Origin: Pirellulales bacterium
Lineage (GTDB): Bacteria; Planctomycetota; Planctomycetia; Pirellulales; DATAWG01
DNA: 40,684 bases
Direction of reading: 5' to 3'
NCBI GenBank assembly: GCA_035939775.1
Contig: DASZFO010000336.1
Coordinates: forward strand, 1-40,684
Shown here: piece after piece, positions 3,766 to 37,884 of the stretch
Layout of the letters: each line of letters opens with the position of its first letter
Position numbering within the stretch: position 1 is the stretch's first letter
Notes under the pieces: generated by a model
What the model saw: only the letters and a program-made list of their open reading frames with translations
What the model was told of the DNA's origin: nothing
Databases searched by the model: none
Made by a program: the position numbers and the translations under genes

Positions 3766-4515
3766 TTACGATCCCAGCGTCGTAAATAGGCTGCGGATTT
3801 CGTCGTCCACGTCCGCGGGGTCGGCGACCGTTTGGGCCAGCTCCTCGCGGAGCAGTTCCCGATATCGCCGCCGGAGGCGATGGGCCGTTTGGCGGACGGC
3901 CTCTTCCGAGATATCAAGCTCGCCCGCCACTGCGGTATAGTCAATCGCGCCGCGACCCCCTGCGAGCGCCTGCTTGAGCAAGTTGAACTGCCGCGATTTG
4001 CCTTCGGCGGCAAGCTCCGTCTTCAAACGCTCGACGACCAGCTCCAGCAGCGTCATCGCCCATTGCCGGTCGTAGAGTTTTTCTGGAGTCAGATCGTGGG
4101 CCGGTTCAAGGTTCAGCCGCGATTCGGCCGTGTCGAGCGCGAACGGCAAGAGCTGTCGACCGCCGCCGCGTTTCTGCGTCTTGGCCTTGTCCCACTCGTT
4201 GGCCAGAAAGTTCTTCATCGCCGAGAGCAAGAAGCTGCGAAAACGGCCGCGCTCTTGCGACGCGGCGGCCAGCACATTCTTTTCCAAAAGCCGCGCGAAG
4301 AATTCCTGCGTCAAATCTTGGGCCTCGCCCACGTCCTTGACGCGGCGCCGCACGTAGGCATAAAGCGGATACCAATACCGCCCACACAACTCAGCCAGCG
4401 CCGCTCCCGCCTCCCGACTCGCGCGATTCCCCGCATCGAGCACAAGGCTCCAATGCGTCGTCCGAAATTCGTCGGCGGCAAAGGTTGCAGGAGTTCGTTC
4501 GTCGGGTGCGCTCAT
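3766..4515 (-). CDS. ECF-type RNA polymerase sigma factor (planctomycete type)
   Basis: A 249-residue extracytoplasmic-function sigma-70 factor. The N-terminal part carries a recognisable signature, FRTTHWSLVLDAGN, then YWYPLYAYVRRR and a region-2 segment, EAQDLTQEFFARLLEK, that contacts the core enzyme and the -10 element. Region 4 lies in the C-terminal third as a helix-turn-helix (about 168-222, with YTAVAGELDISEEAVRQTAH). An in-frame GTG at 4551 would add 12 residues, but the ATG at 4515 is preferred because the conserved part begins soon after it; no clear Shine-Dalgarno precedes either. The kinase gene follows about 208 bases downstream on the same strand. No anti-sigma factor gene is adjacent, which fits control by the kinase. 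The promoters it recognises are unknown. Confidence 0.9.
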   Translation of the reverse strand: MSAPDERTPATFAADEFRTTHWSLVLDAGNRASREAGAALAELCGRYWYPLYAYVRRRVKDVGEAQDLTQEFFARLLEKNVLAAASQERGRFRSFLLSAMKNFLANEWDKAKTQKRGGGRQLLPFALDTAESRLNLEPAHDLTPEKLYDRQWAMTLLELVVERLKTELAAEGKSRQFNLLKQALAGGRGAIDYTAVAGELDISEEAVRQTAHRLRRRYRELLREELAQTVADPADVDDEIRSLFTTLGS

Positions 4516-4567
4516 GGCGTCAATTGTAGTCGCCGCGCAATTGTGTCGCACGCAAAATGTCGAGGGT

Positions 4568-5392
4568 CTACAGCGGCGCCGGTAGGTCGCGGCGGGAGAA
4601 GATCGCGGCCGCGACGATGTAGCAGACCATGCCGATCAGTAGCAGGGGCAGATTGTAGCTCATGGCAATTGTCGTGGCGTCGTATTGCGGATCGACAAAT
4701 CGTTGCGGCTCATAAGCCGTAAGAAACGAGCCATAGAGCAGCCCCGGATAGCCGTCGGCCATCCGGCCGACGACTTTCAGCACGAGCGACACGACGTAGA
4801 ACCCGGCGGCCAATCCAATCGTTCGCCCCCGATAGCGGTCGGCCGACGAGAGCAAGGTGGTGAACCCCGCCAGAAAGAACGCGTAGGCAAAAAGATTGAG
4901 CGCGCAGTAGCCATACGGCATTGCCGGCACGTCGTGCAACTTGGGGATCAGCGCCAGGCCGGTGCATGTGCCCAGCCAGCAGGCCGCTGCCATCAGGGCC
5001 GCCCCGACCGTGGCGATCACGGCGTTGCTCGCCAGCACCTCGACGCGGCGGACTGGCTGGGCCAGCACCATCTCGAGCGTGCCTCGATTCAGCGGCCCGC
5101 TCACCGCATCCGATCCGCGGGCGATGGCCCAGAATGCCATGCCGAACGCCACGAGCGGATGGTCGTAGCCGATGGCGATCCGCCCCGAATACGTGGCCAT
5201 GCTGTCGACCGAGACGGGCAAAAGCCGCTTCCAATAGTCGGGCATGTTTCGCAGAAAATGCTCGAAAAGTTGCAGATCGAGTTGGCTGGTGACCCAAACG
5301 AAGAGCACCTGAAACCCGAACATCAATACCAGAAAGCAGGGGAGCGCCACCCGCACTTCGCCCAATGCTTTTTTCCACAAGGCGCGATTCAT
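4568..5392 (-). CDS. ABC-2 type transporter permease subunit
   Basis: A 274-residue integral membrane protein with several hydrophobic helices: residues about 15-36, a pair in the middle (AVIATVGAALMAAACWLGTC and YCALNLFAYAFFLAGFTTLL), one near RTIGLAAGFYVVSLVLKVVG and a last one before the tail (LPLLLIGMVCYIVAAAIF). It also has the segment GPLNRGTLEMVLAQPVRR, typical of ABC-2 permeases of the multi-copper-maturation/bacitracin-export style. Its ATG overlaps the stop of the ATPase gene by four bases (ATGA at 5389-5392), so it is translationally coupled to its partner. The substrate is unknown. It ends with TAG at 4568-4570. Confidence 0.85.
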   Translation of the reverse strand: MNRALWKKALGEVRVALPCFLVLMFGFQVLFVWVTSQLDLQLFEHFLRNMPDYWKRLLPVSVDSMATYSGRIAIGYDHPLVAFGMAFWAIARGSDAVSGPLNRGTLEMVLAQPVRRVEVLASNAVIATVGAALMAAACWLGTCTGLALIPKLHDVPAMPYGYCALNLFAYAFFLAGFTTLLSSADRYRGRTIGLAAGFYVVSLVLKVVGRMADGYPGLLYGSFLTAYEPQRFVDPQYDATTIAMSYNLPLLLIGMVCYIVAAAIFSRRDLPAPL

Positions 5393-6390
5393 GACGCGGA
5401 CACCGCATGATAACGGTCGTAGATGACTTGCAGCCCCACCGGCTCGATATGCACCTCAGCCAGCGGCAGCGTCGCCAGCCAGCCTAAGAGCGGCGCGAGT
5501 TCTCCCGGCGTCTCGATCGTGACTTGATTGTGAGGTCCGTGCGCGATCTTGAGTTGCTGAGCTAACTCCGGCGGAGGGACGGGAAACGGGCCGCTGAGCA
5601 TCGCCCGAATCCGATGCTGCCGCCGCAGCTCGGCCACCACCTGCTCAAAAACCAAGCGTCCCTTTCGCAGCAGAACCACGCGATCGCATGATTGCTCGAC
5701 CTCGGAAATCACGTGCGACGAGAAGATCACCGTCCGCCCGGCATCGCGAGCTTCAGTGACGAGCGCAATCACCTCCCCGCGCACGGTCACGTCGAGGTTC
5801 GAGGTCGGCTCGTCGAGGATCACCAGCGGCGTGTCGGCCGCCAGAGTGCCGGCCAATGCGAGCTTCCGTTTCATGCCGGTCGAAAGTTGCGACACGCGCC
5901 GCGATAGATCAAGCTCCAGCCGCTCGGCCAGCTTGAGCGAGCGCTCGTAAGAGCCAAGCCGAGAACCGCCTGCGGAGAGGGGGACAGTCCCCTTTTTCTC
6001 CGCCGACCTGCCTTCGGACGGTGGCCGCGAAAAAGGGGACAGTCCCCGGCGGTTCTCGGCTTGGCCATAGGTCGGTTGGCGGCGCACGTCGGCGAAGAAC
6101 CGCAGCACCTCGCGGCAGTTCATCTCGGGAAACATCTGCATCTCACCGGGCAGATACGCGACGCGGCGACGCACTTCGAGCGATCGGCGATAGCAATCCA
6201 GCCCGTCGATCGCGGCCTCGCCGGCGGTGGGCCGCAGATAGCCCAACAGCAGCCGCAAGAGCGTAGTCTTCCCTGAGCCATTGGGACCGAGCAGCCCCAG
6301 CACTTCGCCGCGCCGCACCTGCAAATCACACCGATCCAGCGCCGTGACCCGGCCATAGCGTTTGGTGAGCGACGCGGTGCGAACGATCAT
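5389..6390 (-). CDS. ABC transporter ATP-binding protein with an in-frame repeat-encoded insert
   Basis: A 333-residue ABC ATPase, partner of the overlapping permease. Walker A is GPNGSGKTT (35-43), the signature is LSTGM (169-173), Walker B is LVILDEPTSNLD (189-200), and the switch His lies in FSSHVISE (His226). All catalytic parts are present. Between RRQPTYGQ (103-110) and SLKLAERLELD (151-161) lies an abnormal stretch of about 40 residues, rich in Arg, Ser, Pro and Gly, encoded by the palindromic element at 5953-6065. This segment falls in the helical subdomain between the Q-loop and the signature, where such proteins usually have little or no insert. The frame stays open, so the protein may still be made. 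Whether it folds and works is uncertain. Confidence 0.9.
   Translation of the reverse strand: MIVRTASLTKRYGRVTALDRCDLQVRRGEVLGLLGPNGSGKTTLLRLLLGYLRPTAGEAAIDGLDCYRRSLEVRRRVAYLPGEMQMFPEMNCREVLRFFADVRRQPTYGQAENRRGLSPFSRPPSEGRSAEKKGTVPLSAGGSRLGSYERSLKLAERLELDLSRRVSQLSTGMKRKLALAGTLAADTPLVILDEPTSNLDVTVRGEVIALVTEARDAGRTVIFSSHVISEVEQSCDRVVLLRKGRLVFEQVVAELRRQHRIRAMLSGPFPVPPPELAQQLKIAHGPHNQVTIETPGELAPLLGWLATLPLAEVHIEPVGLQVIYDRYHAVSAS
5953..6065. mobile_element. REPIN-like element inserted in frame within the ABC ATPase gene
   Basis: An 18-bp perfect inverted repeat (GCCAAGCCGAGAACCGCC at 5953-5970; its complement at 6048-6065) flanks two copies of GGGGACAGTCCCC (5980-5992 and 6035-6047). The first is followed by TTTTT and the second preceded by AAAAA. 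This is the layout of a REPIN: two REP hairpins in opposite orientation around a short spacer, normally moved in trans by a RAYT (IS200-like tyrosine) transposase. No such transposase is visible in the window. A second element with the same core lies at 37779-37884. The segment replaces no conserved ATPase motif and introduces no stop. Confidence 0.85.
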
Positions 6391-6517
6391 GGCGGTCGGA
6401 TGAGATGGAAAGCGACTCTAAGCGACCGCCCGATTTTTACGGATTCATCTCGCGAGACGGCGTATATCGTATTGTTTTAGCCTGATCGGAGTTTGCCAAG
6501 GGCAATTGACCAACGCA

Positions 6518-7309
6518 TTATCCGCCGGCGGAGCCAAGCAATTGCTCCAGTCTGCGAGTCAATTCGGGACCGCGGGCGTTGAGCGACACGACATTGCCGC
6601 TTTGATCGATCAGGATCGCGGTGGGAACGCTGGTCACACCGTAATACACCGCCAGCGGGCTGTCCCAGCCGGCGCCGGTTTCGTCGTTGCCCATCATCAC
6701 TGGCCACTTAATCTGTTCCTTGGCCAGAAACTCGCGAAGCGCGTCAGCATCCGTATCGAGGCTCACGCCGACGACTTCAAATCCGCGGTTGTGAAACTTT
6801 TCGTAGTTGCGTTTCACGTTGGGCAGCTCGCGGCGGCACGGCCCGCACCATGTGGCCCAGAAATCCACGAGCACGACTTTGCCCGCCAGCGGTGACGCGT
6901 CGAGCGGCGCGCCGTCGGGAAGCGAGCCGAAGATCTTCATCCGATGGCCGAGCATTCCGAGCCGGCGGGCGATGCCGGCGAATTTGGCTGCGCCGGCGGC
7001 GATCCGCTGATCTTTGCTCGTGCCGAGAATGGCGCTCAAATCGCGATAGGCGCGGATTGCCAGCTTCGCGGTCGCCGGTTGGCGTTCGAGCTGTTGCGCC
7101 GCCGCGGCCGCTTGCCGCAGCGCTTGCTCGTCGTCAGGTGCCTGGACCAGATTGGCCTTGGCAGCTTGCCAGAGTTGGGCTGCTTCAGCGGGGCTCACCT
7201 TCGAGCCGGTCTCGGCCGATGCAGCCGCTCGCGCCATGAGCGCAAGAATCGCCAGGGCGCTAAAGGCCGCCAGATAACGGAATCCACGTCGAAAACTGAG
7301 CCGTTCCAT
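6518..7309 (-). CDS. TlpA-family thiol-disulfide oxidoreductase, secreted
   Basis: A 263-residue envelope thioredoxin-like protein. Residues 1-32 are a signal peptide or N-anchor (FRYLAAFSALAILALMARAAASA). Residues about 35-115 form an Ala/Gln-rich helical region of unknown role. The thioredoxin fold follows from about 122, with GKVVLVDFWATWCGPCRREL giving the redox pair Cys155/Cys158 and the cis-proline at Pro229 in SVPT. Such proteins reduce or oxidise disulfides in periplasmic partners, for example during cytochrome maturation. The start at 7309 is clear: GGAGAAG lies just upstream, and a longer frame to 7639 runs antisense into the next gene with no signal sequence. The partner cannot be told from the context. 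Confidence 0.9.
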   Translation of the reverse strand: MERLSFRRGFRYLAAFSALAILALMARAAASAETGSKVSPAEAAQLWQAAKANLVQAPDDEQALRQAAAAAQQLERQPATAKLAIRAYRDLSAILGTSKDQRIAAGAAKFAGIARRLGMLGHRMKIFGSLPDGAPLDASPLAGKVVLVDFWATWCGPCRRELPNVKRNYEKFHNRGFEVVGVSLDTDADALREFLAKEQIKWPVMMGNDETGAGWDSPLAVYYGVTSVPTAILIDQSGNVVSLNARGPELTRRLEQLLGSAGG

Positions 7310-37778: not shown

Positions 37779-37884
37779 CTAGAAGCAGTTTCAAAACCGC
37801 AGGGGACTGTCCCCGTTTTGCGCAGTCTTCGGAGTAAAATGGGGACTGTCCCCGTCGCCCCAGCGGTTTTGAAACTGCTTCTAG
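37779..37884. mobile_element. REPIN-like element, second copy, intergenic
   Basis: Perfect 22-bp terminal inverted repeats (37779-37800 and 37863-37884, starting CTAGAAGCAG) flank two copies of GGGGACTGTCCCC (37802-37814 and 37841-37853). A T-run follows the first copy and an A-run precedes the second. The core is the same as in the element inside the ABC ATPase gene, but the outer arms are different apart from AACCGC next to the core. It lies between the sulfatase and the short-chain dehydrogenase-like gene. No transposase is present. Confidence 0.85.

Follow-up and report, generated by a model that had tools for sequence, protein, structure and literature searches.

A probably MITE-like palindromic element lies in frame in an ABC transporter ATPase gene and in many other genes of a Pirellulales bacterium

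An in-frame insert in a NosF-like ATPase gene

The window, that is, the whole stretch of 40,684 nt from a Pirellulales bacterium that was analysed, contains a gene for an ABC transporter ATPase that overlaps the gene of its permease partner and carries a palindromic element within its reading frame. The following features are referred to below:

4568..5392, minus strand: ABC-2 family permease partner (Pfam ABC2_membrane_2, 6.7e-14), overlapping the ATPase stop
5389..6390, minus strand: NosF-like ABC transporter ATPase, 333 aa (Pfam ABC_tran, 3.5e-28, residues 18-197), with the element in frame
5948..5950, no strand: left copy of the putative target duplication, TAA, assigned here from the 3-bp direct duplication seen family-wide
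5951..6067, no strand: 117-bp palindromic mobile element of the long-loop class, with type A TIRs and a core spacing of 55 nt
5951..5970, plus strand: left terminal inverted repeat (TIR) GAGCCAAGCCGAGAACCGCC, differing from the family consensus GAGCCTATCCGAGAACCGCC at 2 positions, each with a matching change in the opposite arm
5971..5979, plus strand: asymmetric spacer of 9 nt, TGCGGAGAG, as is usual in the length classes divisible by 3
5980..5992, no strand: inner palindromic core GGGGACAGTCCCC, exact, copy 1
6035..6047, no strand: inner palindromic core GGGGACAGTCCCC, exact, copy 2
6048..6067, minus strand: right TIR, 18/20 identical to the left TIR
6068..6070, no strand: probable right copy of the target duplication, TAG, one base decayed relative to the left copy
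37782..37872 (ends approximate), no strand: second family copy in the window (type D TIR GAAGCAGTTTCAAAACCGC, 39-nt spacing, non-coding gap)

The sequence-only reading of this stretch had described an 18-bp perfect inverted repeat with two cores inside an open ATPase frame, and such a repeat (5953-5970 and 6048-6065, enclosing the two GGGGACAGTCCCC cores) is indeed present. The location given for it stands, whereas its extent had to be revised, since the 18 bp are a portion of the ~20-bp type A arm and the mobile unit spans 5951-6067, corresponding to residues 108-147 of the ATPase rather than to about 111-150. Folded as single-stranded DNA, the element reaches -48.2 kcal/mol (z = -8.6), a value as low as which was obtained in 0 of 200 shuffles.

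The ATPase ORF is open throughout the element and retains Walker A (GPNGSGKT), the LSTGM signature, Walker B (LVILDEP) and the H-loop. These ABC motifs, together with the ABC-2 permease partner, identify the host as a NosF-type ABC ATPase, and TM_1403 and NosF are among the top Foldseek matches of the protein. A search of 58 genomes of the same order, including its own, gave matches in 32 at E<=1e-30, and at this threshold the gene is single-copy in its own genome. In an alignment with 29 relatives, all 28 that cover the site lack the insert and have 5-8 residues there versus 45 in the window protein, a net difference of 40 residues, as expected from the in-frame insertion proposed earlier. 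This number matches the 120 nt, or 40 codons, made up by the 117 bp of the element and a 3-bp duplication.

In the AlphaFold2 model the ATPase has a mean pLDDT of 90, while the insert (residues ~105-146) is coil with a value of about 55; the helices on either side of it, 92-104 and 147-157, belong to the ABC helical subdomain and score above 95. The insert is thus predicted to form an unstructured loop and, because this loop lies between two helices of the helical subdomain, the ATPase probably still works. It could instead be supposed that the gene is a decaying pseudogene that is still open by chance, given that the insertion is recent on the genus scale and shared by no relative. This seems very unlikely, since the catalytic motifs are all kept, the C-terminal part is 59-68% identical to most relatives, no other copy exists in the genome and the permease is intact. 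In addition, two substitutions are matched between the TIRs and one base of the duplication has changed, which indicates that the frame has been maintained for some time.

Copy number and modular structure of the element family

There are 385 exact copies of the core GGGGACAGTCCCC in the 6.39-Mb assembly (384 contigs, fragmentary), against none for the reversed control, as would be expected for a repeat of the kind proposed earlier, and two exact cores, separated by 20-50 nt, were found in 134 elements of about 100-130 bp. Within the window, seven core matches with up to 2 mismatches were found versus 0.66 expected. Neither of the two findings that the sequence-only reading had named as arguing against it, relatives with a similar insert or a core absent from the rest of the genome, was thus obtained. 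The core is also present in 26 of 118 genomes of the order, with 23 copies in a genome of the same family. The core sequence was not found in the literature, and the element had no match in plasmids or in Rfam, where the search for introns covered positions 4500-7000 of the window.

Apart from these core and two-core counts, which are genome-wide, all family figures given below come from a sample of ~1.8 Mb (~28% of the genome; loci L113-L231, a few earlier loci and the window) in which 117 elements were classified. The family has a modular build, consisting of an outer arm of ~20 bp, a spacer of 7-10 nt on one side, two cores, the inner palindromes GGGGACWGTCCCC, and a loop of variable length. 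Four types of TIR, 19-20 bp long, were distinguished: A (GAGCCTATCCGAGAACCGCC), B (GARCGCCTAACAAATCCGGC), C (GAACCCCTCACAAAACCGCC) and D (GAAGCAGTTTCAAAACCGC). Among 36 type A copies, 15 arm positions were changed identically in both arms, compared with 4.5 in shuffles (maximum 12 in 2000 shuffles). At six places (L003, L007, L028, L113 14921, L127 662 and L147 17113) the inner loop is replaced by another repeat, CTCTCCCTTGACGGGAGAGGGCCGGGGTGAGGGTG, and therefore inner modules have been exchanged.

Ends of the element and target duplication

The sequence-only reading had taken the element for a REPIN, a REP pair mobilized by a RAYT transposase. As in REPINs, a hairpin is formed by a pair of inverted REPs, whereas the ends depart from the REPIN pattern, in which HUH chemistry leaves no target-site duplication. 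The three bases immediately outside the arms form a direct repeat, mostly TAA or TTA, in 21 of 66 copies, while shuffling gave a mean of 7.5 and never reached 21 in 5000 trials. Inverted 3-base pairs at the same positions are rarer than expected by chance (2 versus 7.8). Because direct pairs are enriched and inverted pairs are depleted, the outer arms are TIRs and not the continuation of a longer palindrome. Furthermore, some copies of 55 bp have the arms and the duplication and lack cores, as at L147 11260-11314 (TTA/TTA) and L246 1994-2048. The family therefore has the features of a miniature inverted-repeat transposable element (MITE), namely TIRs of about 15-30 bp, a short direct target duplication and a high copy number without a transposase of its own.

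HUH enzymes such as RAYT are not known to make such target duplications, and for this reason the enzyme acting in trans is most likely a DDE transposase, as judged from the duplications. Duplications of 3 bp with the pattern TNA are reminiscent of IS1031-type IS5 elements, a resemblance that we mention as a lead only. No autonomous IS with these TIRs was seen in the 1.8 Mb of this fragmentary assembly, among TIR pairs 0.6-2.6 kb apart, in the surroundings of PF01609 genes, in plasmids or in viral contigs. Three candidate parents were examined and set aside: an arm pair at G000:C248 16918/18503, which looked like a 1.6-kb IS, resolved into a row of separate elements; the PF01609 transposase fragments have no matching TIRs; and a TIR match in a viral contig is a lone arm without a partner, probably a chance match.

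RAYT-like genes, which the sequence-only reading had suggested looking for, do occur in this genome, one of them with AAAAGGGGACATTCTAC in inverted orientation on its flanks and another with AAAAGGGGATA ends. At L032 (1415/2136) and L033 the flanks of RAYT genes carry inverted AAAAGGGGACATTCTAC and AAAAGGGGATAAGTCC ends that resemble the inner part of the element. What the RAYT flanks share with the inner cores is AAAAGGGGACA or GGGGATA and not the whole core. Since the cores have AAAAGGGGACA in common with the flanks of a RAYT gene, RAYT may have played a role as the inner part arose. A true REPIN, with two REPs moved as a hairpin by a RAYT of the HUH type and with the outer arms belonging to the REP, would account for the nested inverted cores, the long hairpin and the likeness between AAAAGGGGACA and the AAAAGGGGACATTCTAC and AAAAGGGGATA ends of two RAYT-like genes. 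However, we regard this explanation as quite improbable, given the direct duplications at the outer ends, the existence of core-less copies with identical TIRs, and the absence of a complete core or element next to RAYT at all RAYT loci examined. An assignment to the GTAG/CGTC class of REPs was likewise rejected, as the ends have no GTAG/CGTC tag and a duplication is present. A MITE-like element, and not a strict REPIN, is thus the description that we adopt.

Reading frame and gene context of the copies

The length classes of the family differ in their relation to the reading frame. Core spacings of 37, 55 and 70 nt go with a 9-nt spacer and give elements of 99, 117 and 132 bp, all multiples of 3, which together with the 3-bp duplication add 34, 40 and 45 codons, respectively. 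In contrast, spacings of 39 and 57 nt go with an 8-nt spacer and give 100 and 118 bp (3n+1). According to gene calls based on Pfam and on a simple codon score, for which long ORFs served as the training set, 20 of the 117 sampled elements, about one sixth, lie as a single open frame inside an ORF with coding signal on both sides, at odds with the earlier view that a copy turned into coding sequence is unusual. Consistent with the length classes, in-frame location was observed for 17 of 54 two-core copies with a spacing of 1 mod 3, as compared with 2 of 46 others (Fisher p = 6e-4).

These copies would add loops of roughly 25-45 residues to many unrelated enzymes. Pfam domains were detected in 18 of the 20 host ORFs, and in several cases a single domain spans the insert. 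The hosts include a class-III aminotransferase, a xylose-isomerase-like protein, MetH, RecG, NadE, ZnuA, dihydrolipoyl dehydrogenase (Lpd), an HD phosphohydrolase, a CcsA-like protein, GH127, a transglutaminase, two histidine kinases and PMT-like glycosyltransferases, among others. Compared with relatives, the inserts amount to +37 aa in RecG, about +21 aa in MetH, +26 aa in Lpd (with zero gap in the closest relative) and about +35 aa in NadE (against most relatives, less against the same-family genome), and the same gaps appear when the proteins are aligned to the solved structures of RecG, Lpd and human methionine synthase in the PDB. The stretch KKGTVPLSAGGSR is part of the predicted insert peptide (ATPase, RecG or NadE). 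Many in-gene copies have lost or eroded TIRs, and in those the exact insertion event is no longer readable.

No clearly disrupted gene was found among the 117 sampled elements. Ten copies had at first been scored as gene breaks with a shifted or stopped frame, and this scoring was withdrawn because in all ten the ORF upstream terminates 22-36 nt ahead of the first core, so that these copies sit behind genes rather than break them. Copies directly behind genes are found at L116 4430, L127 1022, L129 6086, L142 1065 and other places, the end of the ORF often lying at or next to the TWA target, and stop codons may be a common landing site. Two further cases were observed. A copy that starts in a PQQ/beta-propeller-like ORF (PIKSQSENRRVEHPPRQGLS), from L246:2965 onward (G000:C248), is also in frame and lies outside the counted set. 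At L142:7070-7180, a CCCATCC arm variant of a type A copy forms a candidate ATG (ATG GGC TCT AAG) whose frame is that of an RNase HI-like ORF, and the element may supply the start codon of this ORF.

A very stable hairpin such as this one could bring its flanks together, as would suit an insert that never reaches the protein, being lost through intron-like RNA splicing or passed over by ribosome bypassing comparable to the mitochondrial byps. In that case, however, frame and stop codons would be irrelevant, yet the in-gene copies are open and nearly all are multiples of 3; Rfam gave no intron match in the region 4500-7000 either, and we consider skipping extremely unlikely.

Orientation of the in-gene copies and the encoded peptide

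A single orientation and frame, reading RGLSPF...KGTVPLS, is used by 13 of the 20 in-gene copies, where open frames alone would predict a share of 0.22 (p = 5e-5), and such copies outnumber those in the equally open frame of the opposite orientation by 13 to 2 (p = 0.007), these being 20 cases chosen by coding score and compared with a frame model that ignores the codon-phase preference of the TWA target. The excess is therefore suggestive of selection on the peptide and not proof of it. Intergenic copies of 3n length are open in each of the six frames in 24-57% of cases, and thus a 3n insertion in a gene will stay open fairly often without adaptation.

Such an excess, significant against both comparisons, is what would be expected if the peptide were itself useful or selected, a domesticated linker for which copies are kept in genes, and an element in the same loop of two paralogous PMT-type glycosyltransferases points in the same direction. 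Nevertheless, the hosts and the insertion sites are unrelated, the insert is absent from relatives, variable in length and loop and predicted to be disordered, and, as the counts come from a small score-chosen set under a model blind to target phase, we think this explanation unlikely. The two glycosyltransferases, encoded at L200:258-2381(-) and L227:17555-19633(+), are 44% identical and carry the element in the same loop with different sequence; both also have element-like sequence near the N-terminus. Somewhat less doubtful, although still rather unlikely, is the idea of frame-adapted subclasses, according to which 3n elements with one open, low-harm frame would have spread through coding sequence as a protein-tolerated transposon, the RGLSPF...KGTVPLS loop being kept as benign or even useful.

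Proposed origin of the in-gene copies and comparison with known systems

We consider it very probable that the family is a high-copy, non-autonomous, MITE-like palindrome that inserts without regard to reading frame and is retained in genes as loops where the frame is preserved. Under this model a DDE transposase provided in trans would insert the element into TWA (TAA/TTA) sites and duplicate 3 bp, and the insertion would be blind to the frame. Purifying selection would then retain the frame-preserving, stop-free copies as disordered surface loops. The 99-, 117- and 132-bp classes would be favored in genes, as they add whole codons and some of their frames are free of stops, whereas the 3n+1 classes would persist almost only between genes.

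The closest known case is that of the Rickettsia palindromic elements (RPE), mobile palindromes of about 100-150 bp that occur in frame in many unrelated genes and encode a conserved peptide (PMC10969869; PMC3733652). Both features, the in-frame position in unrelated genes and the conserved peptide, recur here, a likeness at the level of description. The present family differs from RPE in belonging to what is apparently another phylum, in having TIRs of four types, 3-bp duplications and nested GGGGACWGTCCCC cores, and in a rule by which length sets the classes found in genes apart from the intergenic ones. A 2013 study described REPs located within ORFs, among them dimers that code for 20-30 residues, and found them most often in Opitutus terrae, a member of the PVC group, and Rickettsia conorii (PMC3733652).

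With the GTAG/CGTC REPs and REPINs the family shares high-copy palindromes, RAYT-like genes in the same genome and location inside ORFs, but it differs from them in the direct 3-bp duplication, the long TIRs, the core-less copies and the lack of a GTAG/CGTC tag. Bacterial MITEs (NEMIS/Correia, ERIC, RUP) resemble it in TIRs, short duplication, absence of a transposase gene and many copies, whereas the share of in-frame genic copies is unusually high here and the parent IS was not found. The family can thus be placed, as MITE-like, among the mobile palindromes in coding sequence. The scale of the phenomenon outside Rickettsia, the contrast between 3n and 3n+1 classes and the combination of TIRs with a 3-bp duplication appear to be new.

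So far, in-frame palindromic insertions have been looked on chiefly as a peculiarity of Rickettsia, apart from isolated REP cases in other organisms. An unrelated, free-standing planctomycete family does the same at large scale; a single genome contains four TIR types and several length classes, and the 3n and 3n+1 classes provide a built-in control. This allows tests of how frequently proteins gain new loops from mobile elements, whether the peptide or the frame alone is under selection, and how single-copy core enzymes such as RecG, NadE, MetH and Lpd tolerate identical inserts.
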